Of a stretch of DNA of 64,000 nt, positions 8,151 through 42,708 are shown piece by piece. How positions within the stretch are numbered: position 1 is the first letter of the stretch; every line of letters begins with the position of its first letter. This stretch comes from Polytrichum commune. Taxonomy: Eukaryota > Streptophyta > Polytrichopsida > Polytrichales > Polytrichaceae. Location: NCBI GenBank assembly GCA_950295325.1, contig OX485806.1, positions 45,627,169 to 45,691,168 on the forward strand, read 5' to 3'. The position numbers were made by a program, and so were the translations under genes. The notes beneath the pieces were generated by a model, which was not told where the DNA came from, searched no databases, and was given only the letters and a program-made list of their open reading frames with translations.

Positions 8151-8366
8151 GTCGGTGTTGACTTGGGCTTGGGTGGGCGTTATCGGCGGATGGGTAAGGG
8201 TCGGGTAGGTGTTGGGTGGGCGTTATCGGTGGATGGGCAAGGGTCAGGTGGGCGTTGGGTTAGTGTTGAATTAATGTTGGGTATGTGTTGGGTGTGTCTT
8301 GGGTGGTTGTTGGGTGGTTGTTGGGTTAGTGTTGGGTGGTTGTTGGGTTAGTGTTGGGTGAGTGTA
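8150..8366 (+). repeat. GT-rich minisatellite (right arm; interrupted by the composite element)
   Basis: Repeats of GTTGGGT(T/G)AGT and GGGCGTTATCGG(C/T)GGATGG words. The array stops at 8,366 with GTTGGGTGAGTGTA and resumes with the same 14 bp at 27,741. That is what is expected if the sequence from 8,367 to 27,740 inserted into this array. Because the target is itself repetitive, part of the 14-bp match could be chance. Confidence 0.7.
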
Positions 8367-8373
8367 CAGGAAT

Positions 8374-8396
8374 GCTACGATGTGAGCGGTGAGCAG
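8374..8396 (+). repeat. Left terminal inverted repeat of composite element
   Basis: GCTACGATGTGAGCGGTGAG continues into CAG at 8,396. It pairs in inverted orientation with the right end at 27,694-27,737. The core ATGTGAGCGGTGAGC also resembles the arms of a 109-bp hairpin at 47,018-47,126. Confidence 0.55.
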
Positions 8397-8617
8397 ATCT
8401 TGTGAGCCGAAAATCAAAATTTAAAACTCCATTTAACGAAAGGTAGGACCCCTATGACCGTGGGTTTTGCACATATTTCAAGTTTAATTTTGGAATTATG
8501 AGGCCAATATTTATGGAGTGCCTAATTTTTAGGACCAAAAGTTTATTAAAATTACCAACGAGTCCCTATGGCCGTGGGAAAATTCAGTGTGGTTGAGAAG
8601 ATGGTGGACCTATGGGA

Positions 8618-8918
8618 AGAGGCCTCGGATCCGAGGCCTCTTAGTTGTGGGTAGCTTATGCTTGAAAATCAAAATGTTATGTATATTTGAGTTGGCTACT
8701 TGTCTTTGCATTTTGCCATTTCTTGTATGTTCTAGCATGAGGAGGAGGTTTGGAAAAAGGCCTCGGATCCGAGGCCTCTTTTTTGTGGGTAGGATATGCT
8801 TGAGAAATCAAAATGTTATGTATATTTGAGTTGGCTACTTGTTTTTGCATTTGGCCATTTCTTGTATGTTCTAGCATGAGGAGGAGGTTTGGAAAGAGGC
8901 CTCGGATCCGAGGCCTCT
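8618..8918. repeat. Three tandem units of about 138 bp, each centred on a long palindrome
   Basis: A unit of about 138 bp occurs 2-3 times (8.59-8.98 kb). Each begins with a perfect or near-perfect palindrome: 24 bp at 8,618-8,641, a slightly mutated copy at about 8,756-8,779, and 24 bp again at 8,895-8,918. The inner core of each is GAGGCCTCGGATCCGAGGCC. The intervening unit (TTGAGTTGGCTACTTGT, TCTAGCATGAGGAGGAGG) is nearly identical between copies. Placed about 240-540 bp inside the left end of the composite element, these have the layout of subterminal protein-binding sites. That role is inference. Confidence 0.85.
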
Positions 8919-9127
8919 TTTTTGTGGGTAGGATATGCTTGAGAAATCAAAATGTTAGGTGTATTTGGTTTGGCTACTTGTCTTTAGATTGTCTACTAGT
9001 TGACGACCACAAAAGTGTAGTGTTATTTGAGAACAATGACAAGATGCATTCAACAAGACAATTGGAATATTAAAAACCACACCACACTTTATAAATCCAA
9101 ATACCAATCAATCAAACCAAAAATCAA

Positions 9128-9696
9128 TCAACAATGAGGTTCCCTACTTCCAAAGATACTTCCCTCATGGCTGCCCTCATCTGAAGTGGAATCTAAGGTA
9201 TGGCATTCATTATCCACCTCTGCAAGAAGCTCGAAGAAGTCTAAGGCACGGGGGTCATAACGTGGAGACGGGGTACTAGCTTTGCTAGTAGAAGGTTGTG
9301 CCGCTAATACCATCGCCATATCATGGGCATAGATTGGCAAAGTGAATCCCTTGGTAGGCGTACCAAACACATCTGCTCCAAGGCCAAGTCTGAAAACAAG
9401 CATGAAAATTGTAAGAAAGAGGATGGAAAGTGTAAAAGCTGAGTGGACAAGGAAAAGAAGCAACTTAGAAGGTCATCATACTCACTTACTGCGAGGACTC
9501 TGGCCTCGATCGCTTCAAGGCCGGCGGCCTCTTCTGCGTGCCTTGTGAAGCCTGTGTGGAAGCAACAACAATGGATGGAGCCTTCACCGGATGCTTAACA
9601 CTCTGAAGTGGCTTAAGGACACGGTTGAAGATGTCCTCGTCCTCCTCGAGAGCAACGATATGGCGCCCAAGTTGCCTGCATGCATGGATAGAAGTC
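9128..9696 (-). CDS. Last two exons, methyltransferase motif I/II-like
   Basis: Exon 9,696-9,490 encodes TSIHACRQLGRHIVALEED and IFNRVLKPLQ. Together with DVNADVG of the preceding exon this matches the order FxGxG-type motif I, helix, G-R-x-x-V-x-x-E/D (motif II) seen at the C-terminal end of beta-class (N4-cytosine/N6-adenine) methyltransferases, where motif IV precedes motif I. The glycine loop is reduced (ADVG). The join between the two exons is out of phase as I read it, another possible lesion. Exon 9,389-9,128 is an acidic tail ending SREPHC and a TGA stop. Class assignment is inference from motif order. Confidence 0.5.
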
Positions 9697-9786
9697 CTTG
9701 TTGCGGAGGAATGGTTAGCAAACATAAATAAAAGCAAAGGTAGAAAATGAAAACCAAGATATGATGGCAAGTGAAGTAGGACATAC

Positions 9787-11070
9787 CAACGTCTGCATTA
9801 ACGTCAACCACGATCTGCCCAATGTCAGTAATTGTCATGATCAAGGAGGGCATGAAAGAAATATCTTTCTCACGGGGACCACACCAAGCTTTGGAGCCAT
9901 CCATGAGAGGGGTTGTGGTATAATTCATAATGGCATCATCCATGTCTAGCTCAATGCCAAGAGCCTTGAGCTCATTGGCATCGCGAAGGCGAAATGACGA
10001 GTGCGGGTCCGCTTATATAGGTCGGATCCAATTGTTTTCGTGGCACGAACAAGTAGCACAACTTGGAAGAGGTTAGTGGTCTTGTCCACATGTTTAGCTG
10101 AATGAAGGTGAAGACGGTTGACTCCCAGCCACTCCTTAAAGATGGTGAAGCCAAAAGCAGCGAAGTGGTCTTGAATGCTCTCCTTGAAGTCACCATTGTC
10201 ATCTGGATGAAAGAAGAGGAGAGCTCCATCATCATGCAGGATCTCATCCGCAAAATCGAAGAGCTCACCTAGAAAATCGGTATCCAATGCATTCCAGGAA
10301 GGTACACTATAGGAAGGATCGGAGACATTGGGTACAGGCAGGTTCTTAGGGATGTCGGCAATGACAAAATCAGCCATGCCCACATCTGACCTCGCAACGC
10401 CTAGAGCTCTCCGCGGATAGGAGGGTGGAAGAGAAAGAATGAAGTTGGAAACCTCCTAAAAATGACGACGTTGATGAAGGATAGAGGCATTCAAGATGCA
10501 TTCTAAAACAACGGGAAGACGCCTAGCAGATGAAAGAATGGGCGGAGGAGGCGGCCTGGATAGAGTAGGAACTTGACTAAGAGATGGAGTAGATGCCACA
10601 GCCGCCTCAGGTGAAGCAGGGGGAGGGGGATCATCCTCCACAGTCTTCAGCTTCTTCGCGCGTTTCTTCAGTGATGACTGGTCTTGGGTTGCACGCTTCC
10701 TCCTCTTGGACTTCTGTGTGGTGGCCTCATCGATAGTCGCAACTACCTCATCCGCCTCCGGAAGTTGACTGTCAAGGACAACAACCTCATCGCTTTGAGA
10801 AGGAGGCAGTGGAGGCTCTCCACCGGAGAGTCGAATCTTCAACTCCGCCTCCTCATCCGGTTGCCACGTCCTCTTACATTCCAAGTACCAGCAACACTCG
10901 CGGAGATGCGGGAGGGAGAAGTTGCGCTTTTGAGCCGGGGGAAAAATGAAAGTGGGCGAAGAGGAATCAAACCATGCGTCTAGAAATGGAGGGAGCTTCT
11001 TCAAAGCCTTCTTCTTGAAAAGCTCGTGCTTGATGTACCTTGACAACAAAGGAGTGAGGCCATTCAGCAA
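9787..11070 (-). CDS. Exon with lysine-rich linker and methyltransferase motif IV-like segment
   Basis: After the acceptor TTTCTAAG the frame encodes LLNGLTPLLSRYIKHELFKK, a Cys/Trp-containing segment (ECCWYLECKRTW), then a Pro/Ser-rich tail with a nuclear-localisation-like KSKRRKRATQDQSSLKKRAKK. An in-frame TAG follows (10,456). The same frame then gives GMADFVIADIPKNLPVP (ADIPKN at 10,342-10,359) and DDGALLFFHPDD. Amino-methyltransferases carry (D/N/S)-P-P-(Y/F/W) as motif IV, followed by a strand ending in a G-G-x-L-type turn; here the site reads D-I-P-K, so catalysis is doubtful. Near 10,015 the frame shifts to LRDANELKALGIELDMDD and reaches a GTATGT donor after IVVDVNADV. Confidence 0.5.
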
Positions 11071-11127
11071 CTTAGAAATAAAATGGTTTGAAATAAATGA
11101 AGACAAAAGATGTCCCAAGTAACTTAC

Positions 11128-11354
11128 CGAAAAATTAAGCGCTTGACAATGTTGTTAGCGCCTTTGACATCCTTCCACCACGTCCCCTTTCCGTAGATAT
11201 CTGACCCAGAGAAGTGACCAATGAACGCCTTATCCCAAAGGCAGATTCGCCACTTCTCCAAGTAATCCGGCAACGAATCAACTTCCATGTCTCCATCAAG
11301 CCCACCCAATGCAGTAAGTATATCGGGTAACTCCTTGACCGCAACATACTCTAG
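11128..11354 (-). CDS. Exon after the satellite-filled intron
   Basis: Acceptor TTCACAG/CTAGAG at 11,354, donor TTTTTCG/GTAAGT at 11,128. The 75-codon translation includes ELPDILTALGGLDGDMEVDS and WRICLWDKAFIGHFSGSDIY, followed by WWKDVKGANNIVKRLI. It is compact and protein-like. The preceding intron is about 3 kb and consists almost entirely of satellite monomers, so the gene must be spliced across the array if it is expressed. Confidence 0.5.
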
Positions 11355-11359
11355 CTGTG

Positions 11360-14250
11360 AACAAATTCGAGGCCAAATCAGATTTCACAAAAATTGAAGC
11401 TATATGGCCTCTTTTCAGACCCCTTACAGGCACGCTCAAATCCCAAAAATCTAAAATGTAAACCTACATGGCCTCAAATAAGACCCCTACCAAGCATACC
11501 CCTTGCGAGAATTCTCAAAAATCTAAACCTACATGGCCTCTAATCAGACCCCCAACAAGCATACCACTTCCAAGAATTATCAAAAATCTAAACCTACATA
11601 GCCTCAAATCAAAACCCTTACAAGCCAGCCTCAATCTTTGAAATAAAAAAATAAATATATATGGCCTTAAATCAGACCCCTTACAAGCATGCCCGAATCC
11701 AACAAATCACAAAATGTAAACATATGTGAGGACCCGAGTACTGAAACTAAGGGCCTGTCGGATCAGACACCCCCCCTTTGCCTCAAATCATAAATCAGAC
11801 CCCTAACAAGCCTCACCCTTCAAGGAATTCCCAAATATTAAAGCTATATGGCCTCTTTTCAGACCCCTTACAAGCCTGCCCCAATCTTAGAAAACAAAAA
11901 ATAAAGCTATATGGCCTATTTCAGACCCCTTACAAGCACACCCAAAACCCGAAAATAAAAAATCATACCCCATACGAGAATGTTTAAAAATCTAAAGCTA
12001 CATAACCTCAAATCAGACCCCTTACAAGCCTCCCCCAATCCTAGAAATCAAAAAACAAAGATATATGGTCTCTTTTCAAACCCCTCACAAGCATGCCCGA
12101 ATCCAACAAATTACAAAATGTAAACATATGTGAGGTCCCGAGTGCAGAATCTAAGGGCCTGTCGGATCCGACATACCCCTCCTTGCCTCAAATCACAAAT
12201 CACACCCCTTACAAGCCTGCCCCAATTTTAGAATTCAAAAATTAAAGGTATATGGCCACTTTTCAGACCCCTTACAAGCATGCCCCTTCAGAGAATTCTC
12301 AAATAATTAAGCTATATGGCCTCAAATCAGGACCCTTATAAGCCTGCCCCAATCTTAGAAAATAGAAAATAAAGCTATATGGCTTATTTTCAGACCCCTT
12401 ACAGGCACTCCCAAAACCCGAAAATCAAAAATCTAAACCTACATGGCCTCAAATCATACCCCCAACAAGCATACCCCTTACGAGAATGTTTAAAACTCTA
12501 AAGCTACATAACCTCAAATCAGACCCCTTACAAGCCTCCCCCAATCTTAGAAATAAAAAACTAAAGATATATGGCCTCAAATCAGACCCCTTAAGAGCAT
12601 GCCCGAATCCAACAAATTACAAAATGTAAACATATGTGAGGTCCCGAGTTAAGAACCTAAGGGCCTGTCGGATCCGACAAACCCCCCCCCCTTCCCTGAA
12701 ATCACAAATCACGCCCCTTACAAGCCTCACCCTTCAAAGAATTCCCAAATATTAAAGGTATATGGCCTCTTTTCAGACCCCTTACAAGCATGCCCCTTAA
12801 GAGAATTCTCAAATAATTAAGCTATATGGCCTTAAATCAGGACCCCTTATAAGCATGTACCAATCTTAAAAATCAAAACTAAAGATATATGGCCTCAAAT
12901 CAGACCCCTTAAGAGCATGCCCGAATCCAACAAATCACAAAATGTAAACATATGTGAGGACCCGAGTACTGAAACTAAGGTCCTGTCGGATCCAACATAC
13001 CCCCCCACCCTTGCCTCAAATCACAAATCACGCCCCTTACAAGCCTCACCCTTCAAAGAATTCTCAAATAATTAAGCTTGCCCCAATCTTAGAAATCAAA
13101 AAATAAAGCTATATGGCCACTTTTCAGACCCCTCACAAGCATGCCAAAATCCAACAAATTACAAAATGTAAACATTTGTGAGGTCCCGAGTTCAGAACCT
13201 AAGGGCCTGTCGGATCCGACATACCCCCCCCCCTTGCCCCAAATCACAAATCACACCCCTTACAAGCCTGCCCCAATCTTAGAAATCAGAAATTAAAGCT
13301 ATATGGCCTCTTTTCAAACCCATTACAAGCATGCCCCTTCAGAGAATTCTCAAATAATTAAGCTATATGGTCTCAAATAAGGACCCCTTATAAGCCTGCC
13401 CCAATCTTAGAAAATAAAAAATAAAGCTATATGGCTTATTTTCAGACCCCTTAAAGGCACTCCCAAAACCCGAAAATCACAAATCTAAACCTACATGGCC
13501 TCAAATCATACCCCCAACAAGCATACCCCTCATGAGAATGTTTAAAAAGCTAAAGCTACACAACCTCAAATCAGACCCCTTACAAGCATACCCCTTCAGA
13601 GAATTTTCAAATAATTTAGCTATATGGCCTGAAATCAGAACCCCTTATAAGCCTGCACCAATCTTAAAAATCAAAAACTAAAGATATATGGCCTCAAATC
13701 AGACCCCTTAAGAGCATGCCCGAATCCAACAAATTACAAAATGTAAACATATGCGAGGACCCGAGTACTGAAACTAAGCTTCTGTCGGATCCGACAAGCC
13801 CCCCCCCCCTTGCCTCAAATCTCAAATCACACCCTTTACAAAACTCACCCTTCAAAGAATTCCCAAATATTAAAGATATATGGCCTCAAATCATACCACT
13901 TATAACCCTGCCCCAATCTTAGAAAACAAAAAATAAAGCTATGTGGCCTCTTTTCAGACCCCTTACAATCATGCCATTTCAAAGAATTCCCAAATATTAA
14001 AGCTATGTGGCCTCTTTTCAGACCCCTCACAAGCATGCCATTTCTGAGAATTCTCCAATATTAAAGCTATATGGCCTCAAATCAGACCACTTACAAGCCT
14101 GCCCCCATCTTAGAAATCCAAAAATAAAGCTATATGGTCTTTTTTTAGACCCCTTACAAGCATGGCAAAATCCAACAAATTACAAAATTTAAACATATGT
14201 GAGGTCCCGAGTTCTGAATCCAATGGCCTGTCGGAACCGACATACCCCCC
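11360..14250 (+). repeat. Satellite block A, about 60-bp monomers with periodic palindrome
   Basis: Degenerate monomers of about 60 bp built on ATGGCCTCAAATCAGACCCC, TTACAAGCATGCCC and AATCTTAGAAATCAAAA. Every 500 bp or so a distinct linker appears: AACATATGTGAGG(T/A)CCCGAG, then GGCCTGTCGGATCCGACA, then a run of 6-10 C and CTTGCCTCAAATCA. Intact palindromes are seen near 12,168, 12,665, 13,207 and 13,785; mutated ones near 11,757, 12,983 and 14,229. The block occupies an intron of the ParB-like/methyltransferase gene and stops within tens of bases of the exons on both sides. Confidence 0.9.
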
Positions 14251-14334
14251 TTTGCCTCAAATGAGACCTAAATCAAGGCCAAGATAAGTAATGAAGAGTT
14301 GAAAGGTAAGTAAGGATAAGGAGGATAGACGTAC

Positions 14335-15138
14335 CCCTGCCCAGAACGCTGCTTTATTGAGCCAATGTTTCAAGTTGTCCTCGCTTGCATGACTTTTGGG
14401 AAACCGGATAGCTTCACGATTGAATCTTCCACTGTTCCACCACTTTAGCCAACGAACTTTATACTCTGGCTCCACAGCAGCTGTAGCAATGAGTTGCAAT
14501 TTCTCCAATGTCATCTCAATCTTTTGAGAATGGTGGGCGCTATAATGCTTAATAACCTGAAACAAATGACATCAAAATTGAAGGCGGAGTAAATTTCATA
14601 ACTACTCAAGCAATGAATGCGAGCAATACCGAAGGTATAATTCCGAAGGTGGTGACAAAGAAATTACCTCCTCCAGGAACTCTTTTCCAAGGGCCGGGTT
14701 TGCAATTGATTGTTGCTTGTTAAACTTATGCCCAAGTTCCTCAGTCGTCTTCTTTATTACAACGTCCAATACATCACTCAACCCCTTCTCTGACTGCTCC
14801 TCTAGAGGCACGTCCTCCTTGTAGATTTGGGTAGCCTCATCTACCGCATCGGCTATCTCTTGCTGTACATATACTCTCAATTGTTATATCATGACTAAGA
14901 ATAATGAATGTGAAGGAGAAGGTTGAGGAATTTGGAGTGACTTACATTGAAAATGAAAGACACCATAAGATCCTGAGTCAGTGGGTACCAAGGGCTCTTG
15001 GGGCCTCTGCTCTTGCACGCTTGGAATTGCTCGTGGGTCAATAATGGCTGGTAGTAGCTAAGATCATACGAACCGTATTTTTGAATGCGGTGTAGAGTGT
15101 GTACGAGGCTAGTTTCAACGTGTGCGGTCTTGTTAGCC
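14335..15138 (-). CDS. Three linking exons of the ParB-like/methyltransferase gene
   Basis: Exons 15,138-14,946, 14,862-14,668 and 14,556-14,335, with donors GTAAGT, GTAATT and GTACGT and acceptors ending AG. Translations include TSLVHTLHRIQKYGSYDLSY, QEIADAVDEATQIYKEDVPL and WLKWWNSGRFNREAIRFPK. The first is rich in aromatic and basic residues, the second is acidic and helical, the third has several Trp. No known domain is recognised. The open frames and consistent splice borders argue that they belong to one transcription unit with the neighbouring exons. They lie in a 1.7-kb island between two blocks of the same satellite. Confidence 0.5.
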
Positions 15139-15215
15139 CTGTTGCGGTTGAGACAAATGCCATTAGATTCCAATCAAAAAATGAAGGAAAAATAGATTTG
15201 AAAAACTATCATACT

Positions 15216-15965
15216 TACTTGTTGATGTCGTGCATTGCGTTAAAGACATCTCCACGCCCACCCGTTGTATCGAAGACGACACATTCTGGGCAACCATGCT
15301 TCTCGTACCAGAGTGCATTGTCCTTGTGATCTGATTCGATGCACTCTTTCCACGCAAGCAAGCGGTGGTTACCATCATACACGAAGAACATACATCCACT
15401 GAGGCTCATCAAGTCCTTATCCGCGCGCAAAAGAGACTCAAACTTATCATTTTCTGCACACCAAAGCTCTTCCCATTCACGCATGTCTTTCGCAGAAATG
15501 AATCGATTTTCTCCAGACTCATTTGTAGTAGACACATACAAAGTGGCAGACCCAGCTCGGTATCCAAATTGAAAAGCCGCCATGAGCTTTGTAACGTCGT
15601 TGCGTAGGGTTGGACGAACCAATGGCATGTGAATCAACCTGCAGAGGAGGATTCTCATAGAGGACTTTTCTACCGGTTGTATCCTCATGCCCTCAACAAC
15701 TGAGAAACTATCTTTCTTTAAATTGTGGCGAATCCGATACTCCATTGCACGAACACCCACATCCGGCTCTGGAAGAGAGCCGCATAATGGCATCACTGGT
15801 GTATGCGGTTCGCTACTACCTGGTGTAAGAACACTATTTCCAGCATATGAGAATGAAGACCCTTGCTCCCTCTGTTCCTCCCCACTAAAAGATGACCCAC
15901 CGCCAATGGGAACCCCAACATCCAATAACTCTCCATCCGCATCCATCTGAACGATCTGCTGAAAC
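15216..15965 (-). CDS. Exon with ParB-like DGNHR segment
   Basis: About 250 codons follow the acceptor CTGTTTCAG. The first ATG in frame starts MDADGELLDVGVPIGGG. The N-terminal 70 residues are Ser/Gly/Pro-rich and look disordered. A globular part follows: VEKSSMRILLCRLIHMP, then VTKLMAAFQFGYR, and near the end FFVYDGNHRLLAWKECI (DGNHR at 15,350-15,376). A D/G-G-N/x-H-R-x-x-A arrangement is the core of ParB-type nuclease/CTPase and sulfiredoxin folds, where it binds a nucleotide. The rest of the ParB family signature is not obvious, so the assignment is by one motif and its predicted strand-helix context. The exon ends at a GTAAGTA donor. It is immediately flanked upstream by satellite. Confidence 0.5.
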
Positions 15966-16009
15966 AGAGGAGAAGCAGTCAAAAAACTTGCAAACATGAA
16001 AACAGTCAA

Positions 16010-18530
16010 ATCAGACCCCTAACAACCATACTCCACTCCGAGAATTCTCAAAAATTAAAGCTAGATGGCCTCATATCAGGCCCCTCACAAGCATGCCCGA
16101 ATCTAAAAAATCTAAAATCTAAACCTACATGGCCGCCAATTAGACCCCTAATAAACATACCCCACTCCGAGAATTCTCAAAAATTGAAGCTATATGGCCT
16201 TAAATTAAACCCCTTACAAGAGTGCCCGAATCCCATAAATCAAAAATCAAAGCTATATGGCATCAAATTGGACCCCTTACAAGCATGCCTCAATCCCACA
16301 AATCACAATCCTAAGCCTACATGGCCTCATATTAGGCCCCATAGAGGCACGGCCAAATCTCAAAAATGCACAAAATTATAACAAATGTGAGGTCCCGAGA
16401 TGTGAGCCCAAGGGCCTGTCGGATCCGACACCCCCCCCCCTTGCCTCAAATCAAACCTCTACCTACAAGACCCCAATCCTAAAATTCCCAAAATTTCAAC
16501 CTAAATGGCCTCAAATCAGAGCCTTCATAAGCATACCCCACTACTTGAATTCATAAATCTAAACCTACATGGCATCTCACTAGGCCCCCCTCAGGCACTC
16601 CCCAATCTCAAAAATATGATATTTATACCAAATGTGAGGAGCCCTGTTCTGAACCAAAGGGCCTGTCGGGTCCGACACCCCCCCCCCTTGCCTCAAATCA
16701 AACCTCTACCTACAAGACCCCAAACCTAAAATTCCCAAAATTTCAACCTAAATGGCCTCAAATCAGAGCCTTCATAAGCATACCCCACTACTTGAATTCA
16801 TAAATCTAAACCTACATGGCATCTCACTAGGCCCCTCTCAGGCACTCCCCAATCTCAAAAATATGATATTTATACCAAATGTGAGGAGCCCTGTTATGAA
16901 CCAAAGGGCCTGTCGGGTCCGACACCCCCCCCCCTTGCCTCAAATCAAACCTCTACCTACAAGACCCCAATCCTAAAATTCCCAAAATTTCAACCTAAAT
17001 GGCCTCAAATCAGAGCCTTCATAAGCATACCCCACTACTTGAATTCATAAATCTAAACCTACATGGCATCTCACTAGGCCCCTCTCAGGCACTCCCCAAT
17101 CTCAAAAATATGATATTTATACCAAATGTGAGGAGCCCTGTTCTGAACCCAAGGGCCTGTCGGGTCCGACCCCCCCCCCTTGCCTCAAATCAGACCTCTA
17201 CCTACAAGACCCCAAACCTAAAATTCCCAAAATTTCAACCTAAATGGCCTCAAATCAGAGCCTTCATAAGCATACCCCACTACTTGAATTCATAAATCTA
17301 AACCTACATGGCATCTCACTAGGCCCCTCTCAGGCACTCCCCAATCTCAAAAATATGATATTTATACCAAATGTGAGGAGCCCTGTTATGAACCAAAGGG
17401 CCTGTCGGGTCCGACACCCCCCCCCCTTGCCTCAAATCAAACCTCTACCTACAAGACCCCAATCCTAAAATTCCCAAAATTTCAACCTAAATGGCCTCAA
17501 ATCAGAGCCTTCATAAGCATACCCCACTACTTGAATTCATAAATCTAAACCTACATGGCATCTCACTAGGCCCCTCTCAGGCACTCCCCAATCTCAAAAA
17601 TATGATATTTATACCAAATGTGAGGAGCCCTGTTCTGAACCCAAGGGCCTGTCGGGTCCGACCCCCCCCCTTGCCTCAAATCAGACCTCTACCTACAAGA
17701 CCCCAAACCTAAAATTCCCAAATTTTCAACCTAAATGGCCTCAAATCAGAGCCTTCATAAGCATACCCCACTACTTGAATTCATAAATCTAAACCTACAT
17801 GGCATCTTACTAGGCCCCCCTCAGGCACTCCCCAATCTCAAAAATATGATATTTATACCAAATGTGAGGAGCCCTGTTCTGAACCAAAGGGCCTGTCGGG
17901 TCCGACACCCCCCCCTTGCCTCAAATCAAACCTCTACCTACAAGACCCCAATCCTAAAATTCCCAAATTTTCAACCTAAATGGCCTCAAATCAGAGCCTT
18001 CATAAGCATACCCCACTACTTGAATTCATAAATCTAAACCTACATGGCATCTCACTAGGCCCCTCTTAGGCACTCCCCAATCTCAAAAATATGATATTTA
18101 TACCAAATGTGAGGAGCCCTGTTCTGAACCAAAGGGCCTGTCGGGTCCGACACCCCCCCCCTTGCCTCAAATCAAACCTCTACCTACAAGACCCCAATCC
18201 TAAAATTCCCAAATTTTCAACCTAAATGGCCTCAAATCAGAGCCTTCATAAGCATACCCCACTACTTGAATTCATAAATCTAAACCTACATGGCATCTCA
18301 CTAGGCCCCTCTCAGGCACTCCCCAATCTCAAAAATATGATATTTATACCAAATGTGAGGAGCCCTGTTCTGAACCAAAGGGTCTGTCGGGTCCGACACC
18401 CCCCCCCCCTTGCCTCAAATCAGACCTCTACCTACAAGACCACAATCCTAAAATTCCCAAATTTTCAACCTAAATGGCCTCAAATCAGACCCTTCACAAG
18501 CATACCCCACTACTTGAAATCAACAAACTA
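16010..18530 (+). repeat. Satellite block B with 246-bp higher-order repeats
   Basis: After about 400 bp of divergent monomers, eight units of 244-247 bp follow, with ATGGCCTCAAATCAGAGCCTT starts (words up to 20 bp) at about 16,504, 16,751, 16,998, 17,243, 17,490, 17,734, 17,980 and 18,225. Units are more than 95% alike by eye and each ends in GGGCCTGTCGG(G/A)TCCGACA plus a C run of 7-11. The repeated open frames (MASNQSLHKHTPLLEFI...) are products of the repeat and not genes. Most copies carry GTCGGGTCCGAC, one base off the palindromic form seen at 16,417. Confidence 0.95.
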
Positions 18531-21500
18531 ATCCTACATGGCCTCTTATTAGCCCCTGTCAAGCATGTCCAAATCAAAATATTTTCAAAAATCAAAGTTA
18601 ATTGACCTCAAATCAGACCCCTCACATGCATTGCCACCTACCTGAAATCAACAAACTAACCCTACATGGCCTCTTATTAGCCCCTTCCAAGCATCACCAA
18701 ATCAAAATATTCTCAAAAATCAAACATAAATGGCCTCAAATCAGACCTCTTACAACCATACCCCACTACCTGAAATCAACAAACTAATCCTACATGGCCT
18801 CTTATTAGCCCCTGTCAAGCATGTCCAAATCAAAATGTTCTCAAAAATCAAAGCTAATTGACCTCAAATCAGACCCCTCACATGCATTGCCACCTACCTG
18901 AAATCAACAAACTAACCCTACATGGCCTCTTATTAGCCCCTGTCAAGCATGACCAAATCCAAATATTCTCAAAACTCAAAGCTAAATGGCCTCAAATCAG
19001 ACCCCCCACATGCATTCCCCCCTACCTAAAATCAACAAACTATGCCTACATGGCCTCTTATTAGCCCCTTTCAAGCATGACTAAATCCAAATATTATCAA
19101 AAATCAAAACCAAATGGCCTCAAATCAGACCCCTCACATGCATGCCTCAATCGCACAAGTCACAGATTAAACCTACATTGCCGCTTATTAGGCCCCTCTC
19201 AGGTACTCCCCACTCCCAAAATTTTGAAATTCATACCAATTGTGAGGTCCCCAGTTTGGAACATAAGGGCCTGTCGGATCCGACACCCCCCCCCTCACCT
19301 CAAATCATACCTCTACCTACAAGACCCCAATCCTAAAATTCCCAACATTTCAACCTAAATGGCCTCAACTCAGACCCTTCACAAGCATACCCCACTACCT
19401 GAAATCAACAAACTAACCCTACATGGCCTCTTATTAACCCCTCTCAAGCATGTCCAAATCAAAATATTCTCAAAAATCAAACATAAATGGCCTCAAATCA
19501 GACCTCTTACAACCATACCCCACTACCTGAAATCAACAAACTAATCCTACATGGCCTCTTATTAGCCCCTGTCAAGCATGACCAAATCCAAATATTCTCA
19601 AAAATCAAAGCTAAATGGCCTCAAATTAGACCCCTCACATGCATTCCCCCCTACCAAAAATCAACAAACTAAGCCTACATGGCCTCTTATTAGCCCCTTT
19701 CAAGCATGACTAAATCCAAATATTCTCAAAAATCAAAACCAAATGGCCTCAAATCAGACCCCTCACATGCATGCCTCAATCGCACAAGTCACAGATTAAA
19801 CCTACATTGCCGCTTATTAGGCCCCTCTCAGGTACTCCCCACTCCCAAAAATTTGAAATTCATACCAATTGTGAGGTCCCCAATTTGGAACATAAGGGCA
19901 TGTCGGATCCGACACCCCCCCCCCTCGCCTCAAATCAGACCTCTACCTACAAGACCCCAATCCTAAAATTCCCAACATTTCAACCTAAATGGCCTCAACT
20001 CAGACCCTTCACAAGCATACCCCACTACCTGAAATCAACAAACTAACCCTACATGGCCTCTTATTAGCCCCTGTCAAGCATGTCCAAATCAAAATATTCT
20101 CAAAAAACAAAGCTAATTGACCTCAAATCAGACCCCTCACATGCATTGCCCCCTACCTGAAATCAACAAACTAAGCCTACATGGCCTCTTATTAGCCCCT
20201 TTCAAGCATGACCAAATCCAAATATTCTCAAAAATCAAAACCAAATGGGCTCAAATCAGACCCCTCACATGCATGCCTCAATCGCACAAGTCACAGTCTA
20301 AACCTACATTGCCGCTTATTAAGCCCCTCTCAGGTACTCCCCACTCCCAAAAACCTGAAATTCATACCAAATGTGAGGTCCCCAGTTTGGAACCGAAGGG
20401 CCTGTCGGATCCGACACCCCCCCCCCTCGCCTCACATCAAACCTCTACCTACAAGACCCCAATCCTAGAATTCCCAACATTTCAACCTAAATGGCCTCTT
20501 ATTAGCCCCTTTCAAGCATGTCCAAATCCAAATATTCTCAAAAATCCAAGCTAAATGGCCTCAAATCATACCCCTCACATGCATTCCCCCCTACCTGAAA
20601 TCAACAAACTAAGCCTACATGGCCTCTCATTAGCCCCTTTCAAGCATCACCAAATCAAACTATTCTCAAAAATCAAACATAAATGGCCTCAAATCAGACC
20701 TCTTACAACCATACCCCACTACCTAAAATCAACAAACTAACCCTACATGGCCTCTTATTAGCCCCTTTCAAGCATGTCCAAATCCAAATATTCTCAAAAA
20801 TCCAAGCTAAATGGCCTCAAATCATACCCCTCACATGCATTCCCCCCTACCTGAAATCAACAAACTAAGCCTACATGGCCTCTCATTAGCCCCTTTCAAG
20901 CATCACCAAATCAAACTATTCTCAAAAATCAAACATAAATGGCCTCAAATCAGACCTCTTACAACCATACCCCACTACCTGAAATCAACAAACTAACCCT
21001 ACATGGCCTCTTATTAGCCCCTTTCAAGCATGTCCAAATCCAAATATTCTCAAAAATCCAAGCTAAATGGCCTCAAATCATACCCCTCACATGCATTCCC
21101 CCCTACCTGAAATCAACAAACTAAGCCTACATGGCCTCTCATTAGCCCCTTTCAAGCATCACCAAATCAAACTATTCTCAAAAATCAAACATAAATGGCC
21201 TCAAATCAGACCTCTTACAACCATACCCCACTACCTGAAATCAACAAACTAATCCTACATGGCCTCTTATTAGCCCCTTTCAAGCATGACTAAATCCAAA
21301 TATTCTCAAAAATCAAAACCAAATGGCCTCAAATCAGACCCCTCACATGCATGCCTCAATCGCACAAGTCACAGACTAAACCTACATTGCCGCTTATTGG
21401 GCCCCTCTTAGGTACTCCCCACTCCCAAAAACCTGAAATTCATACCAAATGTGAGGTCCCCAGTTTGGAACCCAAGGGCCTGTCGGATCCGACACCCCCC

Positions 21501-21950
21501 CCCTCGCCTCAAATCAGACCTCTACCTACAAGACCCCAATCCTAAAATTCCCAAAATTTCAACCTTTATGGCCTCTAATCAGACCCCTCACAAGCATACC
21601 CCACTATCTGAAATCAAACATGTAAACCTACATGGCCTCTTTTCGGACCCCTTTCAACTATACCCTAATCCAACATTTCACAAAAATCTTATATATATTG
21701 CGTTAAATCAGACCCCTTTCAAGCATGCCTCAATCCCACAAGTCACAAACTAAACCTACATTGCCTCTTATTAGGCCCCTCTCAGGCACGACCCAATTCC
21801 ATAAATCTGAAAATTATAACAAATGTGAGGTCCCAAGTTATGGACCCAAGGGCATGTCGGATCTGACATACCCCCCCTTGCCTCAAATCAGACCCCTAAC
21901 TACCATGCCGCTCTCCCAGAAGTTGAGAATCTAGCAATTAGCAAACAAAA
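18531..21950 (+). repeat. Satellite block C with 128-bp dimers
   Basis: Built on 64-bp monomers (AATCAACAAACTAA(C/T)CCTAC, ATGGCCTCTTATTAGCCCCT, TCAAGCATG(A/T)CCAAATC) arranged as 128-bp dimers. Repeat starts at 20,555, 20,683, 20,811, 20,939 and 21,067 are exactly 128 bp apart. Linkers with TGTCGGATCCGACA and a C run occur near 19,270, 19,902, 20,402 and 21,481; a mutated one lies near 21,857. The pattern shows a recent local amplification at 20.5-21.3 kb. Confidence 0.95.
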
Positions 21951-23476
21951 ACATCATATTAAACCTCTATCATGATAACCCCAAGACCAGAAAGCAAAAA
22001 AATAGGCCTTTGCGAGGTTCTGAAGCTGGCTCACAATTGTCTCTCACCTCAGACCTCTCCACAGGGCGACCACTGCCCTTCCCTCCAGTCACTCCCCCTC
22101 TCCAAATCGTGGCTGCAACCCTGTGCGCTGAGTGAATTCCTTGTATGCGGTGCAAGACCCTAGTTCTGATTTCCGTTGTAATTCGGTGGACGACGGTATG
22201 TTACTGCTGTGGCAGTCTTGTTCCCTTCCGACTAGCTCATTGTGACCACCCGTTGGATGGTGAGTTCTTTTACGGGCCCACTCTTGCTGCCTTCTCTATC
22301 TCACAAAGACAACCCCTAAATTCTAGTGCATATATGTATACATCGACTTGAGGTCCATACCTGTGTCTCGGAAATTCTCGATAGTTCATGTGATATTTGG
22401 ACCTCCACTTTTCTGGTCGTACCCACTCCAGCTTCCCTCCTAGCTATGTCTTCACCACGATTACTCTTCTTGTCATAATTCTAGACCTTGATCGTGTGCG
22501 GTTTGGGGAGAATTCCAATGCCTTGACTGTGATGTTTAAGCCATCATATTGTTGTTTTTGTTGTCTCATCCTAGAAACCCTTATTTGTTTCCTGCTTGAG
22601 AAAAGTGCCTTCCTCCTCCTCTTTGCCTTTGGTTTCACTAACTCTAGCGGCGAAGACCCTGTCATGTAACTGAATCCACTTCGCAAATTCTACACTACCC
22701 TCCTTTGTGAACATCGCTATATCAATGTATGTGTCTCGCCTGGATTACATCTACACTAATATTCCATCTCATAATCTCCTTCCCATAATGTCGATGTATT
22801 TTGATTACAATCTAATTGCTATATACATATAAGGAATCATCGAAAGGAACACTTATAGAATGAACACAAATGTTTAATAACATTTATTGAAATAATCCAG
22901 TGCAAATCTAAATATGAGGAGCATCATGCGTTATAAAAATACATATTTTATTACAAATGATAATACATAATTCAAGCTAAACAACAAGAAATAAATAATT
23001 TGTATAGCCATAAATTGACGAGACTCTTCCCACTAAACTAACCTATTCTTGCTTCTCCTTAAATTTGAATGCTCTGCCCTTTCCCATTTGAAGCCTCCAC
23101 TAAAAAATTAACACTTTCCTTTAGGGTGTCCCTTACATCCACTAAATGGTTCACGTGGTCTCTGGTGTATTTATAATTACGGCACTCGGCATTCAGCCTC
23201 ATGTTTGTTCTTAATATATCTACATTGGATTGGCATTTGTTCATGACTAACTTAAGTAATTGTTGCATTGCATTTTCAGTTCTTAATCATGTTGCTATCA
23301 TGAGTCCGCTTATTATTCCACTACTAATCCAAGTCTGCGCCGTCTTTCATAGATTCCATCTTGCCATGACCTTCTAACCACATCACTATATACACCGCCC
23401 CACTTTCTACTCAACTTAAGTCCATTGCCCATTTGGCCACTCCCTTCTGTGTACTTGCATTTACATTCCTTCTACA
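21951..23476. other. Spacer between satellite and transposase gene
   Basis: No domain recognised. It would contain the promoter and 5' leader of the rightward transposase gene and possibly the missing 5' exon of the leftward gene. The satellite ends at about 21,940 in unique sequence. Confidence 0.4.
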
Positions 23477-26400
23477 ATGGCCACCATCCGAGCACTGCAC
23501 CATTCCATCCCCCTTATGATCCCTCTTGGAGATGATGGTCTAGCCAAAGTCGCGGAGTCGTTCCTTAGTCTGAGGTTTAGATTCCACCCAGACTCAATTC
23601 ATGTCGAGGAAGAGGTCTTTGATGACAACGGTGACTTGAGTCACACTGTCCTTCAGATGTCCTTTCGCATTGACGATGGTAGGGTTTGGTTCTTTCTCCC
23701 TGCAAAGTACAAGGCCATAGGTGTCACTGAGTCGGAAATGGCCACCACTACTGTGTTGCTAACACCAGGCGTGTCCCTCACGTCCACCACGCAGGCTCCT
23801 CTTCTGGCGACGGTCAAAAAGGAGCCCGGCATCCAAGAGGTTACCTTGCTCAGTGATGACTCTGATGATATGTGCCACCTGCCTATGACTTTGCCTCACT
23901 TAACCCACCTCCATCGCAGGATCAGCCCTTCATCAATCCTCTCAGGATTCCACACTCGCCTACTGTGAGTCAACCACCTACTTCCAGACCCCCAGTTCAC
24001 CCAGGTGTCTCCATAGATCGTCCCAGTGTTGTCCAGCAATTGAAGTTGCTTGCAACCCGACCAGGGTCCAAGAACATCCTCAAGAGTATTGATTATGAAT
24101 CTGTTAGGCATGAGAAGGTTGACTTCCTCCCATCTGTTTTTGACGGCGACGTCATCTTTGAGTTCCCTCCTCTGGGAGCTCATGCTCCCCATTCCCATGC
24201 TAGACTCATGTTCGGAATGGACAAGCGTTTCGACGGTTATGCTTGGTGTAGGACAAAGACGTCTAACATTACCAATGATCTCGGCTTGACCTTCTGGTTT
24301 TCATGTTGTGTTGGCCATCTCTGCTATCATAACGAGGGATGTGATTATCTCAACCGCCCCAATTGAGCCATTGACGTCAACAAGACCGAATGGGAAGGTT
24401 GTACCGCCTCACCCTTCACCGCAGATGCTGATCCCCCAGCTGGGTCATCTCTCGTTTGTAAGGTCTGTAAAACACCACCCTATTGTCTTGATACTTGCCA
24501 GGCTAAGATGTACAATGTTCTTGGCAGAGGTGACATGACCCGTGCATGCATCCATATGGGTCATCACCATCACCCTGTTTCGCAAGGTGTCTGTAGAGAG
24601 TCTAAGGTCAAAATTCATGATCTCATTGGTAGAGAGGTTGAGAGGACTCCCACCGCCACCAACTCTGCCATTGCATTGGCTACTAGTAAAGAGTTCCTGG
24701 CCAAGTATCTTCTACGCACGGGATATGATCCCAATAAAGTTATGGACCTGGAGTCCATGAAGTTTGTCATGGACATGTACCAACACCTCAGCACCCAGAG
24801 TATTCGAAACACTATCACTTCCTTCAAGCGCATTGGGCGAGGGGGGATCATTGACAGCATCACCGGACTCAGAGGTCATAGCAGTTGGCCCTATGTGCAA
24901 GAAAACAAATTCCCAGGCCAAGGAAAATTGTTGGAGAAAGTCTATGTGTTCAAGATGTCCGAGGTGGGCCCTGGGTCTGGAGTTGACCTTGTCAGGAGAA
25001 TGCAACCACACGGTGATTTGCAGGATGCTTGGGTCATGTTTGACCATGTCAAACGTGTCAAGGGGTGGACAACCATGGCTTGCCATGTCTATGACTCGGC
25101 CTACTGCCGGGTTATGACTATTGCAGTATGTGATATGCAGTCTGAGGATGTCACGGCGCAGAGCCTTCTTTGGCATGGGCTCAATGAAGTTATGCTCAGA
25201 CATGGCATTGCTAAAGTTAACTTCAAAGGGTTCATGGCGGACAGTGCACAGGCCAATTGGAATGCAGTTAGGATTATCTATGGCAGCGGTGATCCCAAGG
25301 TTCCTATGGAGTCTCGCGAGAGGACATGTCTATTGCATTGGACAGTGTCTATGGAGCGCCACACCGCCACCCACATCAAGCCCGACCTCCAACAACAACA
25401 CAAGTTGTTATGCAAGCAGTACAAGGATGCCAAGACTCCCGAGCAGTCCGAGTCCCGTTATCTTGCCATCCGGGCATGGTGGCTTTCCTCTGGAGCTGCA
25501 TCCGAGGAAGGAATCAAGGACCTTGATACATGGCTTGCATTCTGGCATTTTCGTTACCGTCAATGGGGTGGTTTCATGCAACTAATGAGTACCCACCGAC
25601 TTTCTATTTCATTTTTTGGGGTCAACTTTTTTTTTGGTTTTTTTTGGTTTTTTGGTGTCAGTTTTGGCTTTTAGCGTGTTTTTGTGCAAAGCGTATTCAC
25701 TACATTTTATTGACTTCTCTCAGAATTTCACAGATTCTGAGTTGGCAGAGATGCCATCTTGCAACCTCTCTGAGACAGTCCATAACAAATGGCTTCAGCA
25801 GTCTGGAAACCGTGGCTCTGATCTATATGTTGCGACCGTGGATGATTTTGTGAGGGCGTTCATGCAATGTGCAAACTACTACGCCTACTTGAAGGGTGAA
25901 CGGTCTGGCACTGGCCTAGGAAAAGAAGAACTCCGCCTTCGTGCTGCACAACGATCCGGTGACGCCAAGAGAATTGTACGTTGCAGCCCTCAAGCACATG
26001 CCTGGAGCAGAGCATTGGTGCACCCGCAAACCCCAACTCGAAGGAGAGGAGGTCTTTGGCACCACCAAGCGCAAACTTGATATACCCCCTGGTTCTGAGC
26101 AGGATTCACATAGACCCGACAAGGTCAGCTTCTCTCATCCACGAGTGAGCACTAGGTCAACCAAGGCACGCACTGATTCCGCCACACCATCAAACCTGCC
26201 CCTAACACAATCCCCCGAGAAATCGATTCCACAACGGGTCACCCACGTCAATAACATTCAGGAGACCCACTGCGATGTCTCCGAGTGGCACATTTCTAGA
26301 CTGCCCAAGACTTCCGCCAAGGCTTGCTTCGCCATGCAAGCTCGCACAAAGACCAAGTGCACCCAGAAGATCGTTCGGCATGGTAAAAGTACTCCAGCTC

Positions 26401-27136
26401 CTACGTACACCGGCTACATGCGCGACTACAAGAAGAACAAGGAATTATTGACACAGTTCTTCTTCTGCAACGACGACATTGAGAGATGTGTCAAAAGCAC
26501 TAGGAGGAAGTGGGTGCAGCACCGTCCGGATGTCCCGGACGTCTGGCCTGTCCTCACTGGGACAAACCTCACTCTCCAAGAGGTTTTGGCCCTTGAAGAA
26601 GGGGGATTCCAACTTCAGCAGCGTCAAGATGTGTCACCCGGAAGACTCTTCGGCGACTCCTCCAATGTTGCTTCATCCATGGCCGAACTCCCTACCCCGG
26701 CCCAAGCCGATCAATACCCTACGCTGAGGTTTGGAAAAAAGATCCGACGCAGTAACAACGGACCATGCGTCCAACAACGCAACAAGTGGGAGTCAGCCCT
26801 CAACGTCGACGGTCAAATCACCTCCGTCACAATGATACCTCACCCAGGGATCGGGTGCATCATTCTGTTCCAATCCCGAAAGAAGGCTTAGGTTGAAGAG
26901 TACCGTATCACTATCAGCACCTTCCCGTCGTGCACGTGCCTGGATTTCGTGGAGATGTCAGCAAGAGCACTTGGGAAGCGGCGCCCTTGGGTGAACTGCA
27001 AGCACTTGTACTTCATCTTCCGTGTGACCTGCAACTTGGATCAATACCAAGACACTTTCATCCATGCTCCGAGCCTTAGTTTCAATGAAGTGAAGCACAT
27101 CCTCGAAAGTGGCATCATGAAGCATGTGGGACCTTA
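23477..27136 (+). pseudogene. MULE-type transposase with SWIM zinc finger, decayed
   Basis: Frames join into one long product. N-terminal part from ATG 23,477 (acidic, SDDSDD linker). A Cys-rich part at 24.2-24.5 kb (WFSCCVGHLCYHNEGCDY, then CKVCKTPPYCLDTCQAK) may bind zinc. The core at 24.5-25.57 kb has WVMFDHVKRVKGWTTMACH, KGFMADSAQANWNAVRIIYG and FWHFRYRQWGG, which matches the MULE transposase layout (acidic residues D in VMFD and MADS as candidate catalytic residues). The C-terminal SWIM-like motif is CTC at 26,931-26,939 and CKH at 26,998-27,006 (CxC...CxH). Such enzymes cut and paste Mutator-like DNA elements in the nucleus. Lesions: frame change near 23,868, TGA at 24,364, frame change near 25,955, TAG at 26,889. 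A T-rich insert at 25.6-25.7 kb looks like an intron. As it stands it is unlikely to be functional. Confidence 0.7.
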
Positions 27137-27693
27137 GCGTGGATACCTATAGGAGCTAGGCTGCCCCCCCTTATTTATAAGTTGTCGCTAAGTATTATTG
27201 CGTTGAGTATACTATAGTATGAGTGCACATTTTCCGAAAATATCGTTGATATATCAGACCTATCATTATCTACATGATGTAAATTGTATTTGTTTTTAAA
27301 TATCTATAAAGGTTTCTAAATATTTATGGGTCTCTCCTTCCAACAGTAGTTTTAGATGTTATTGAATGGTACGAGTTTTGCTACTTTGCTTGAATGCTTG
27401 AATGCTTGAATTTTTTGACTTAGAATTTTCTCTTACGTTGTGACCATAGCCTATGATTAACCGGCTCTCACCATAATATGGACAGTCAAAAGTTCCCTGG
27501 TTTAAGTAAATCATGTCAACTAGTCTCTCTGAAAGGTACCCTAAAACCAAGTCTCTGTCCTGAAAGCCCTCAAAATTTGCACGGAAATAGGTCCATCATT
27601 GTTACTAAAAAAAGAGGCCCCACGATTTTTTCTATTTATTTTTTCTAAAATTGGAAATTTTATTACTATAATTGGAAAGCGTTGACTTTTTTT
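27137..27693. other. 3' flank of transposase, subterminal region
   Basis: No gene. AT-rich, with a short CTTGAATG tandem at about 27,388-27,412. The words AAATTTGCACGGAAATAGGTCC at 27,572-27,593 (here read up to 20: TTTGCACGGAAATAGGTCC) weakly mirror GGACCCCTATGACCGTGGG at 8,448-8,466 near the left end. Confidence 0.35.
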
Positions 27694-27740
27694 CTGCTCA
27701 CCGCTCACCGCTCCCGTCCCAGCGCTCACACGGTAGCGTC
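27694..27740 (-). repeat. Right terminal inverted repeat of composite element
   Basis: On the minus strand from 27,740: GACGCTACCGTGTGAGCG, a GC-rich insert, then GAGCGGTGAGCGGTGAGCAG. This pairs with the left end at 8,374-8,396. The right copy carries an extra GAGCGGT unit. Confidence 0.55.
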
Positions 27741-27870
27741 GTTGGGTGAGTGTAGGGTGAGTGTTGGATTAGTGTTGGGTGGGTGTTGGGTTAGTGATTA
27801 AGGTTGGTGTTCGGTGGGCGTCTTCGATCATGGATTAGTGTCGGGTGGATGTTGGGTGGGATTGTATTAA
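27741..27870 (+). repeat. GT-rich minisatellite, continuation
   Basis: GTTGGGT, GGATTAGTGTTGGGTGGG and GGTGGGCG words, the same family and orientation as 8,150-8,366. It begins with the 14-bp GTTGGGTGAGTGTA that also ends the left part, supporting insertion of the intervening DNA into one array. Confidence 0.65.
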
Positions 27871-37539: not shown

Positions 37540-38821
37540 CTAGTCGTAAGCATCCAAGATGCTGATGTCGTCCTTGTCGAAGTCGAAGTCAAAGTTGAAC
37601 CTTGTCCTTCCGAGGTCCGCTGCCCAGCGGTAGACCCCGAGAAGGGAGCCAGAGGTGGGGTGGACGTGTGTTCTGAAGTACCGCAGACAATCATCTTTGG
37701 GGAAGGCGGCAGAGGCAGCTGGCGCTTCTGTAGCCTCGGCCATTGGGTGCTTGGACTAACTCCGTGTGTTCTTGTTGATCAGGATGATGCGCAGTTGCTA
37801 GTATTTCCTCTTGCCCATGGATTTGCGGTGAATTGGCCCTTGGCCCTAATGGTTCTCCCTTTCGTATGTTGTTATTCTCCCTTGAGTTGTTGTCGGGTGT
37901 TGGGGGTGGTGTATTAGACTTGGGGGGTTCACGTTCTTCCGGTGGTGGCCTCCAGTTGTTGCCCATAGTCCACAATAAGTTGTCCACCAAGTCTGGGAAG
38001 TCCAGGCGTGCAGCGAATTCTGCTTCTGCATCAGGGGATGGTGACAAGTGGCGTATAAGGATTGGGGGCGCGATCCAAGCTCCCAAATCCCTGGGTAAGA
38101 ATTCTTGCGGTGGAGTGACATTCCATTTAATGGTGGTTCCTTGTAGTCTGCCAAAAATATTAGTCGTGGTCCATATTTTCTGGAAGTAGTCAATCAATTC
38201 TCGACGCTTTTCTTCATTTCTTTTATGGCGGAATAATTCTTTGTAGGCCTCCATGGCACAGTAGATAGTATTCCGCCAAGCATGCCACATGACAACCCCA
38301 AGATGGAAATCGTCTTCTCTAAATGTGTGTGCAACCCGTTGGCACCAGATAGACCAAAGCAGCTGAGCTCGGAGTATGTCCAAGGGGGTCTCCGAGTTGA
38401 TGGAGCAGGCCGAGGTGGTGTCCCATCTCAAGTCCTCATCTACCTGGGGCCCTGGGGGATCCAACATCAGTCCTTGACTGATTTCCGGCCATGAAAGGTA
38501 CGCCGATGGTGGTCTAGCGACGTTCCTTGTATTTCGAAACAACTCCCAGGCTCGACTAAGGTGAGGGCAATCCTTGAGCGCATGTTGGAGGGTTTCCCTT
38601 GCTTGATCCGGACAGAGCTCACATGCACCAGGTAAGCCGATCTTTTCCCTCCAGGCCCCGACCGAAAGCCCTTCAGTGAGTACTAGCCATTGCATGGCTG
38701 ACACTTTTCGAGGTAAGTATGGGTGCCAAATGCGATTGAAATTTTTTGCTCTGCTTTTGCTGTTGAATCCTTGCGCTTCAAGTTCTGCATCCAAGGTCAT
38801 TTGTTGTGTGTTTTGTTTCAT
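37540..38821 (-). pseudogene. LINE ORF2 C-terminal zinc-binding (zf-RVT) region
   Basis: Same reading frame as the RT segment after one in-frame TGA. It contains RIWHPYLPRKVSAMQWLVLT and GACELCPDQARETLQHALKD, followed by CPHLSRAWELF: CxxC...H...C, the zf-RVT motif. A Pro/Glu/Asn-rich tail follows. The frame is open to 37,691, with a possible last stretch in another frame to 37,540. Confidence 0.8.
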
Positions 38822-38836
38822 GGCTATTCTGTAGCC

Positions 38837-41000: not shown

Positions 41001-41103
41001 AGAGCAGTTCCGCATTGTGCTCCTCCGTTACTGTTTGTTTGAGGTATTGAAAACACTCCCTTGCCATTGTGTTAGCTTCCACCTCTTCGTCCCTGGTGTT
41101 TAA

Positions 41104-42420: not shown

Positions 42421-42444
42421 GGAGATTTAGAGGTTAAATCTGGA

Positions 42445-42708
42445 TTACTGCTCCGAGTTGGATTCCTCGTCGAGTAAGGTGGAGAACCGGTTGTGTGAAT
42501 CCGGTGCTGGTTGGTCTCCCTCCCTGGTTCCAGGTAAGCGACCTGCCATTTTCTGCCAGTGGCTCTGATTGGGGTCAATTGCTTGAATGGTGTCTGTCGT
42601 ACGTGAGGCGAGTATGGTCGTTATCTGCATGGGTTCTCTACGCCATCCCAAATTATTCCCTTTCCTCGGCTTGACCTTATGTTCTGGCATGTCAATGCTA
42701 ACATACAA
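42445..42708 (-). pseudogene. LINE ORF1 C-terminal fragment
   Basis: The frame ends DSHNRFSTLLDEESNSEQ and a stop; an N-R-F-x-x-L-x-x-E motif at the C-terminus is typical of plant L1 ORF1 RNA-binding proteins. The N-terminal RNA-recognition and zinc-knuckle parts are lost by 5' truncation at 42,734. The start codon of ORF2 would lie a short distance downstream. Confidence 0.55.

Follow-up and report, generated by a model that had tools for sequence, protein, structure and literature searches.

The window analysed here, a stretch of 64,000 nucleotides from Polytrichum commune (contig OX485806.1), contains a Mutator-like transposon of 19,378 bp at positions 8367–27744, sited in a GT-rich repeat. 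A Mutator-like transposase gene reads rightward and a ParB/methyltransferase-like gene reads leftward, near opposite ends of the element, and its repeat arrays carry a conserved palindromic dyad, TCGG-NN-CCGA. The arms of this dyad follow the ParB clade in every array examined. An earlier sequence-only reading of the window had proposed a giant Mutator-like unit whose two genes face outward and whose core consists of repeats, which is borne out by a second complete copy (copy 2) and by exact 10-bp duplications at 11 large copies, the window element counted. It had missed the conservation of the palindrome and its agreement with the ParB clade. Other copies come from the 407.8-Mb assembly (64 contigs), with all listed places on seven contigs, C1 to C7. 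Our overall reading, held tentatively and at a little under even confidence, is that the clamp of a Mutator-like transposon loads on its own TCGG-NN-CCGA arrays and shields the element from host silencing.

Palindromic arrays and the ParB clade

The satellite core of the sequence-only reading does consist of repeats, but these form two arrays and not one. The first (about 11385–14190) lies in an intron of the ParB-like gene and has dyads at 12162, 12668, 13210 and 13785, with an extra dyad, TCGGAACCGA, just past it at 14231. The second (about 16006–21903) lies between the genes and has 13 TCGG-NN-CCGA dyads from 16419 to 21483; eight of these sit in a 247-bp array and read TCGGGTCCGA. Additionally, 139-bp repeats near the ParB end (8613–8985) hold the palindrome AGGCCTCGGATCCGAGGCCT, with dyad cores at 8625, 8763 and 8902; three copies of this palindrome are also found in the ParB-end part of copy 2 (L042). 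Altogether the core occurs 21 times inside the element versus 0 times in the 44,622 bases outside it: nine TGTCGGATCCGACA, eight TCGGGTCCGA (six of which are full TGTCGGGTCCGACA), three AGGCCTCGGATCCGAGGCCT and one TCGGAACCGA. In a search for perfect palindromes, the nine TGTCGGATCCGACA were all inside the element and none elsewhere in the window.

The 8- to 10-mers most common to the cores of the window element, copy 2 and a third copy (copy 3) are the TCGG-NN-CCGA palindrome. Copy 2 has 15 exact sites and copy 3 has eight, in array units that differ from those of the window; dyad spacing is often about 170 bp in these two copies and 245–247 bp in the 247-bp array of the window. The common core was read from a discovery set of six arrays beside other ParB clades, and seven further arrays, picked by ParB position alone, served as a test set. 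It is present in 13/13 arrays (7/7 in the test set), with 2–16 sites each, while simulated counts per array had a mean of 0.105 at most and a maximum of 2. Among the 30 top ParB-match loci, window and copies 2 and 3 included, 28 could be oriented, and all 28 have the sites upstream of the ParB motif. In one of them the site is TATCGGATCCGATA, where both sides are changed and symmetry is kept. As regards presence, candidate parS-like palindromes matched to the ParB clade are thus found in cis in every array examined. We rejected the idea that the satellite is a filler array and nothing more, since a single dyad core persists from one ParB clade to the next.

The arms differ between clades. Clade A has the form TGTCGGATCCGACA, also found in L071 (a 60% copy), the 54–55% clade has GGTGGTCGGRTCCGACCACC, and the 41% clade has GTGTCTCGGNNCCGAGACAC and relatives, including GGTTTCGGGACCGAAACC and the imperfect TGTGTCGGGGCCGAGACACC. 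There are 658 TGTCGGATCCGACA sites genome-wide versus 0 for the reversed control. Genome-wide co-location covers clade A only, for the 50 sites listed among the 658, which take in C1 as far as 32.03 Mb. Of these 50, 45 are no more than 10 kb away from a clade-A ParB copy, of which five are known in that stretch, and the other five are 36–44 kb from a clade-A ParB, within a 70-kb span from ParB end to transposase end. None of these 50 adjoins the eight distant-clade ParB copies. Over 20 copies, ParB distance and arm distance are correlated (Mantel r 0.84, 0/5000 permutations). Linkage alone would give some correlation of this kind, and it is for this reason that copies of mixed composition matter. 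Copy 3 has the clade-A site; its ParB belongs to clade A, and its transposase is just 47–56% identical to that of the window. L068 and L075 have a window-type transposase (93–95%) beside a 41%-clade ParB and carry the 41%-clade site. In all three mixed copies examined the site goes with ParB and not with the transposase.

It is very probable, judging from these sequence patterns, that the ParB-like protein binds the dyads. The alternative is that the protein does not bind them, and that they serve a promoter, a regulator or the transposase, or have hitch-hiked with the satellite. This would fit the position of the dyads upstream of a gene, and tandem arrays copy any content while array and gene are linked. 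We nevertheless consider it quite improbable. Arrays of three ParB clades keep the same core while site flanks between clades are near the shuffled level (0.29–0.32 vs 0.28–0.29), the mixed copies follow ParB, and three far-end sites plus five in or beside the ParB intron are not at a promoter. Two observations weigh against our reading. Flanks are weakly alike within clade A (0.36–0.49), and several arrays within other clades are plainly alignable, so that arrays within a clade can be partly aligned, as hitch-hiking would have it. Moreover, in six nonautonomous copies of about 500 bp the dyad core is intact in two, has one mismatch in two and is absent in two.

Some further features of the arrays were noticed. 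In several array types (window 12160–21500; copies 2 and 3) the palindrome is bracketed by a GAGGT ... ACCTC pair at a distance of about 25 bp, and pair and palindrome perhaps make up a larger composite site. The ParB intron of copy 2 (L041, L042) has a second palindrome family around GGTTTGGGTCGATCGACCCAAACC, with 22 dyads GGGTCG..CGACCC and eight GGTCGATCGACC in copy 2. A stretch of about 830–980 bp, 90–95% identical, is common to arrays of three ParB clades (L039/L040 of copy 2, L043 of copy 3, L070 and L074); it is possibly a separate element inserting into arrays. The palindrome GGGCGCTGTCCCGGGACAGCGCCC is present in L040 and L070, and only its inner part in L074. Two clade-A ParB copies at C1:20223855-20260108, separated by 28 kb, point in opposite directions. 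Each has 12 listed sites, the spacing of one set mirroring that of the other, so that this is either one large inverted duplication or two insertions.

Element limits and other copies

The sequence-only reading had placed the element at 8367–27740. The left end stands, and comparison with other copies moves the right end to 27744, with CAGGAATGCTAC... and CAACGACGCTACC... as the termini. The flanking 14 bp are indeed shared letters, but the duplication itself is 10 bp, GGTGAGTGTA, at 8357–8366 and 27745–27754 (both on the forward strand). The additional four letters are the element's own GTTG, coinciding with identical letters of the GT-rich array; a 14-bp duplication was therefore rejected from the end comparison across copies. 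Target-site duplications of Mutator-like elements (MULEs) are about 8–11 bp. The insertion site consists of GT-rich repeats with a period of about 11 bp (GTTGGGTGAGT), at 8166–8366 and 27745–27800.

The ParB-gene end (CAGGAATGCTACGATGTGAGCGGTGAGCAG..., 8367–8600, forward strand) gave 44 matches genome-wide, which are 40 copies of at least 91% identity, window included, and four short fragments. The transposase-gene end (27694–27744, reverse strand, reading inward CAACGACGCTACCGTGTGAGCG...GTGAGCGGTGAGCAG) recurs in copy 2, in L053 and in eight of ten further copies; for the remaining two, the stretch taken held no end. In the comparison of end pairs, the ParB end starts with CAGGAATGCTA; at the transposase end the first letters are CAACGACGCTA or CAGCGACGCTA. 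An inverted motif at the two ends, proposed earlier with a strong match over about 40 bp, is present, but the match does not convince by itself. The inverted repeats are short and imperfect, with GCTAC..TGTGAGCG and GTGAGCGGTGAGCAG in common; at its best the local match covers 16 bp, and the top one of 200 block shuffles scored equally high. What supports the ends is recurrence: the terminal motif GAGCGGTGAGCAG is found 692 times (342 + 350) in the genome versus 13 (7 + 6) for the reversed control, and the ParB end recurs genome-wide as well.

Another copy with both ends and both genes, such as the sequence-only reading had advised looking for, does exist. Copy 2 (36,969 bp, C1:32.01 Mb) has the same ends, both genes and the duplication CACACACAAC. 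The copy bounded by L052/L053 (19,673 bp) has an exact 10-bp duplication. Ten further copies were a subset of those with a listed ParB end and a listed transposase: a script found exact duplications in six (14,219, 14,681, 14,697, 15,458, 16,417 and 28,512 bp), and printed flanks with a second script did so in two more (69,299 bp on C4 and 14,818 bp on C1). Duplications of the window element, copy 2, L052/L053 and these eight are thus exactly 10 bp, within the MULE range. The large copies measure 14–69 kb, 69,299 bp being the longest.

Among 15 end pairs compared, with 10-bp limits read by eye from script output, nine have exact duplications and three match in 9/10 positions; some of the pairs are related families with different outer letters (GAGGGAAGC/GGGGAGTGC). 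Three pairs lack a clear duplication and count against our reading: L001/L002 are two ends of one type, L050/L051 are ends of two families, and L054/L055 are truncated. The first two look like what would be expected if the window ends came from two unrelated elements and the unit were accidental. With an exact 10-bp duplication at the window unit and at ten other large copies, and with both genes inside the complete copy 2, the probability of this is negligible and we rejected it; the window ends belong to one element. Some ParB copies, such as copy 3, do have different ends, as the sequence-only reading had foreseen for the case that it was wrong, yet this leaves the unity of the window ends untouched.

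Nonautonomous elements of about 500 bp (L001, L045–L049) have the same kinds of ends. Five of the six have 10-bp duplications, four exact and one (L048) matching in 9/10 positions, and L001 has none.

The two genes

The ParB/methyltransferase-like gene (9128–16018, reverse strand) has about eight or more exons, whose pieces match copies 2 and 3. It is damaged in the window: an in-frame stop interrupts it near 10456, and its frame breaks near 10010. Open ParB exons are found elsewhere in the genome, and copy 3 gives a spliced model of 1100 amino acids with an open frame. The first long exon has at least 144 match rows genome-wide. One exon (15215–16018, reverse strand; DGNHRLLAW) encodes a predicted ParB-type CTPase domain, an identity that is based on the modelled N-terminal CTPase fold with its G-x-x-R motif. 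A scan of viral contigs with the ParB alignment gave 28 pattern matches, of which 0 were confirmed; tblastn against phages returned 76 records, and the 20 listed cover 5–20% of the query (best E 2e-4) and are mostly annotated as methyltransferases.

The exons at 9486–11154 (reverse strand) encode an N6/N4-methyltransferase-like region with a degenerate motif IV (ADIPKN), as seen from Pfam on the copy-3 protein and from the alignment. In N6_N4 methyltransferases the catalytic motif IV is [DNS]PP[YFW]. It is absent from the corresponding position in 18/18 aligned sequences: 14 have D-[LI]-P-[EDK] and the other four NIAE, DISD or DISE. It has been proposed for the Sola1 transposon of the alga Ectocarpus that such a fusion is an active methyltransferase guided to its own transposon (PMC12477816). 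An enzyme of this kind, marking N6-methyladenine or N4-methylcytosine, would agree with the matches of the copy-3 protein to Pfam N6_N4_Mtase (PF01555; E 2.2e-5) and, on the same C-terminal stretch, to NCBIfam CcrM (E 4e-6, 26 bits, cut-off 830), and also with a DPSY string that several sequences have a few residues past motif IV. The Pfam score is below the curated cut-off (25.0 vs 26.7 bits) and covers the last quarter of the profile only, and DPSY is not kept in all sequences. We rejected an active methyltransferase as first choice because of the degenerate motif IV, and regard it as improbable.

The transposase gene (23420–27137, forward strand) has at least two exons and is also damaged in the window, where stops lie in frame at about 24364 and 26889 and the frame is broken near 25970–25980; copies with open frames exist elsewhere in the genome. 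The protein is predicted to be a Mutator-type, IS256-like DDE transposase. It resembles MuDR/Mutator and IS256 in a predicted DDE core closest to ISCth4 (IS256), a WRKY/GCM-like domain and the 10-bp duplication, and differs in its divergent ParB-like partner gene, in the great length of the elements and in Pfam Mutator profiles, none of which reached the cut-off. Transposase_mut matched two of 61 relatives (best E 0.034) and none of the window pieces. Pfam on single window open reading frames gave nothing useful, and a sequence search of solved structures gave no match or chance-level rows only.

Pairing of the two genes is recurrent. Counts are lower bounds, made on 97 transposase and 138 ParB rows among the matches listed; six of the 144 ParB rows were left out because they were split pieces of copies that the count already included. 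A ParB copy lies no farther than 40 kb from at least 47 transposase copies, in divergent orientation for 42, convergent for four and on the same strand for one, while 200 random placements on rough chromosome lengths gave a mean of 2.7 and a maximum of 8 pairs. By transposase group, the numbers are at least 29/57 and at least 18/40; the two-gene architecture recurs in two transposase subfamilies. The longer ParB pieces of copy 3 are 79–89% identical to those of the window, in contrast to its transposase and its different end. As some ParB copies pair with a different transposase and end, modules have been exchanged between elements.

The rest of the window has a LINE-type reverse transcriptase (37691–42578, reverse strand; RVT_1 and zf-RVT) and, at 47639–49584 (reverse strand), a remnant that matches DUF4218 and, weakly, DUF4216 and probably belongs to an En/Spm-type element. 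DUF4218 and zf-RVT are plant-type transposon domains and fit a plant host. No tRNA or Rfam matches were found in scans of the window.

A possible ParB-parS system in a transposon

We propose a clamp mechanism because the predicted fold, the conserved motif and clade-matched palindromes in cis are all present. The transposon would carry, head to head with its transposase, a gene for a predicted nucleotide-gated ParB clamp fused to a degenerate methyltransferase. Such a clamp would load on the TCGG-NN-CCGA palindromes in the element's own arrays, spread by sliding with CTP and, from the arrays, protect the element against host silencing. Bacterial ParB nucleates on palindromic parS and needs CTP for spreading by sliding (PMC7053999, PMC8367383); by analogy, we give even chances that the ParB-like clamp slides and spreads in this way. 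A working ParB-parS system in a eukaryotic nucleus, with fast-changing loading arrays, a private palindrome for each clade and a spreading clamp that would mark or shield 14–69 kb of its own chromatin, is a conceivable reading to which we assign not quite even weight. As to its purpose, anti-silencing in the manner of VANC is the likeliest, compaction for end pairing comes second and self-methylation third, the latter because motif IV is degenerate. Anti-silencing, argued from analogy, is a possibility that we hold with clear reserve.

The ParB-like protein might instead bind the dyads to build a clump similar to a partition complex, compacting 14–69 kb and joining the ends for transposition. 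This seems unlikely: many transposons move without such a factor, there is no sign of contact between the ParB-like protein and the transposase, and the arrays, which largely set element length, would cause the problem that they solve. In line with compaction are the copies of up to 69,299 bp, the location of the window sites (18/21 well inside the element, three at 250–550 bp from one end) and the fact that ParB with CTP condenses DNA from parS (PMC8299390).

Protection from silencing by a loaded clamp would have its nearest parallel in the VANDAL elements of Arabidopsis. These belong to the Mutator group, and their VANC protein is not known to be a ParB fold. VANC is an accessory DNA-binding protein that binds short motifs in the noncoding DNA of its own element, be it intronic, intergenic or terminal, and removes DNA methylation over several kilobases; its targets are often tandem repeats and vary between related elements (PMC5735166). 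Unlike the dyads, its motif YAGTATTAY is no palindrome, and VANDAL elements are several kilobases long versus 14–69 kb here (PMC5735166).

The accessory class itself, a ParB-methyltransferase in transposons, is already known. Sola1-1_Ec32 of Ectocarpus and related algal transposons are similarly giant (21.5 kb), with an accessory gene opposite to the transposase strand that encodes a ParB-like, N4/N6 methyltransferase-like protein of 1104 amino acids; these proteins were noted as a puzzle and a self-modifying role was suggested (PMC12477816). They differ in the Sola1 transposase, the brown alga host and a methyltransferase taken as active, and no palindromic array is described in the parts of that paper available to us (PMC12477816). 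Bacterial ParB-parS and phage fusions share the ParB CTPase fold and a palindromic site near the gene, and in phages also the fused N6_N4 methyltransferase-like part (PMC12704722); here the context is a eukaryotic transposon and the methyltransferase motif is degenerate. No ParA turned up with the transposon ParB gene, and no search aimed at ParA was made. A 2025 survey of the ParB-CTPase fold lists phage ParB-N6_N4 fusions and mostly sulfiredoxin among eukaryotic forms, and its main text has no match for 'transpos' or 'plant' (PMC12704722). The main text of a MULE survey has none for ParB or moss (PMC6446971). Our literature search on ParB with Mutator-like, transposon and plant gave no paper, and in the parts of the literature searched we found neither a ParB-methyltransferase accessory on a Mutator-type element nor any mention of a cognate palindromic array or of its changing together with the ParB clade.

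TCGG-NN-CCGA with clade-specific arms would offer a simple rule for the DNA seen by ParB-methyltransferase proteins, in many natural copies, and clade swaps are ready-made controls. If the proposed mechanism is true, the CTP-gated sliding clamp of eukaryotic transposons was recruited from bacteria or phages, and palindromic satellite arrays, far from being junk, would be its landing sites. Possibly, such protein-site pairs would be orthogonal and could direct proteins to arrays in eukaryotic chromatin.

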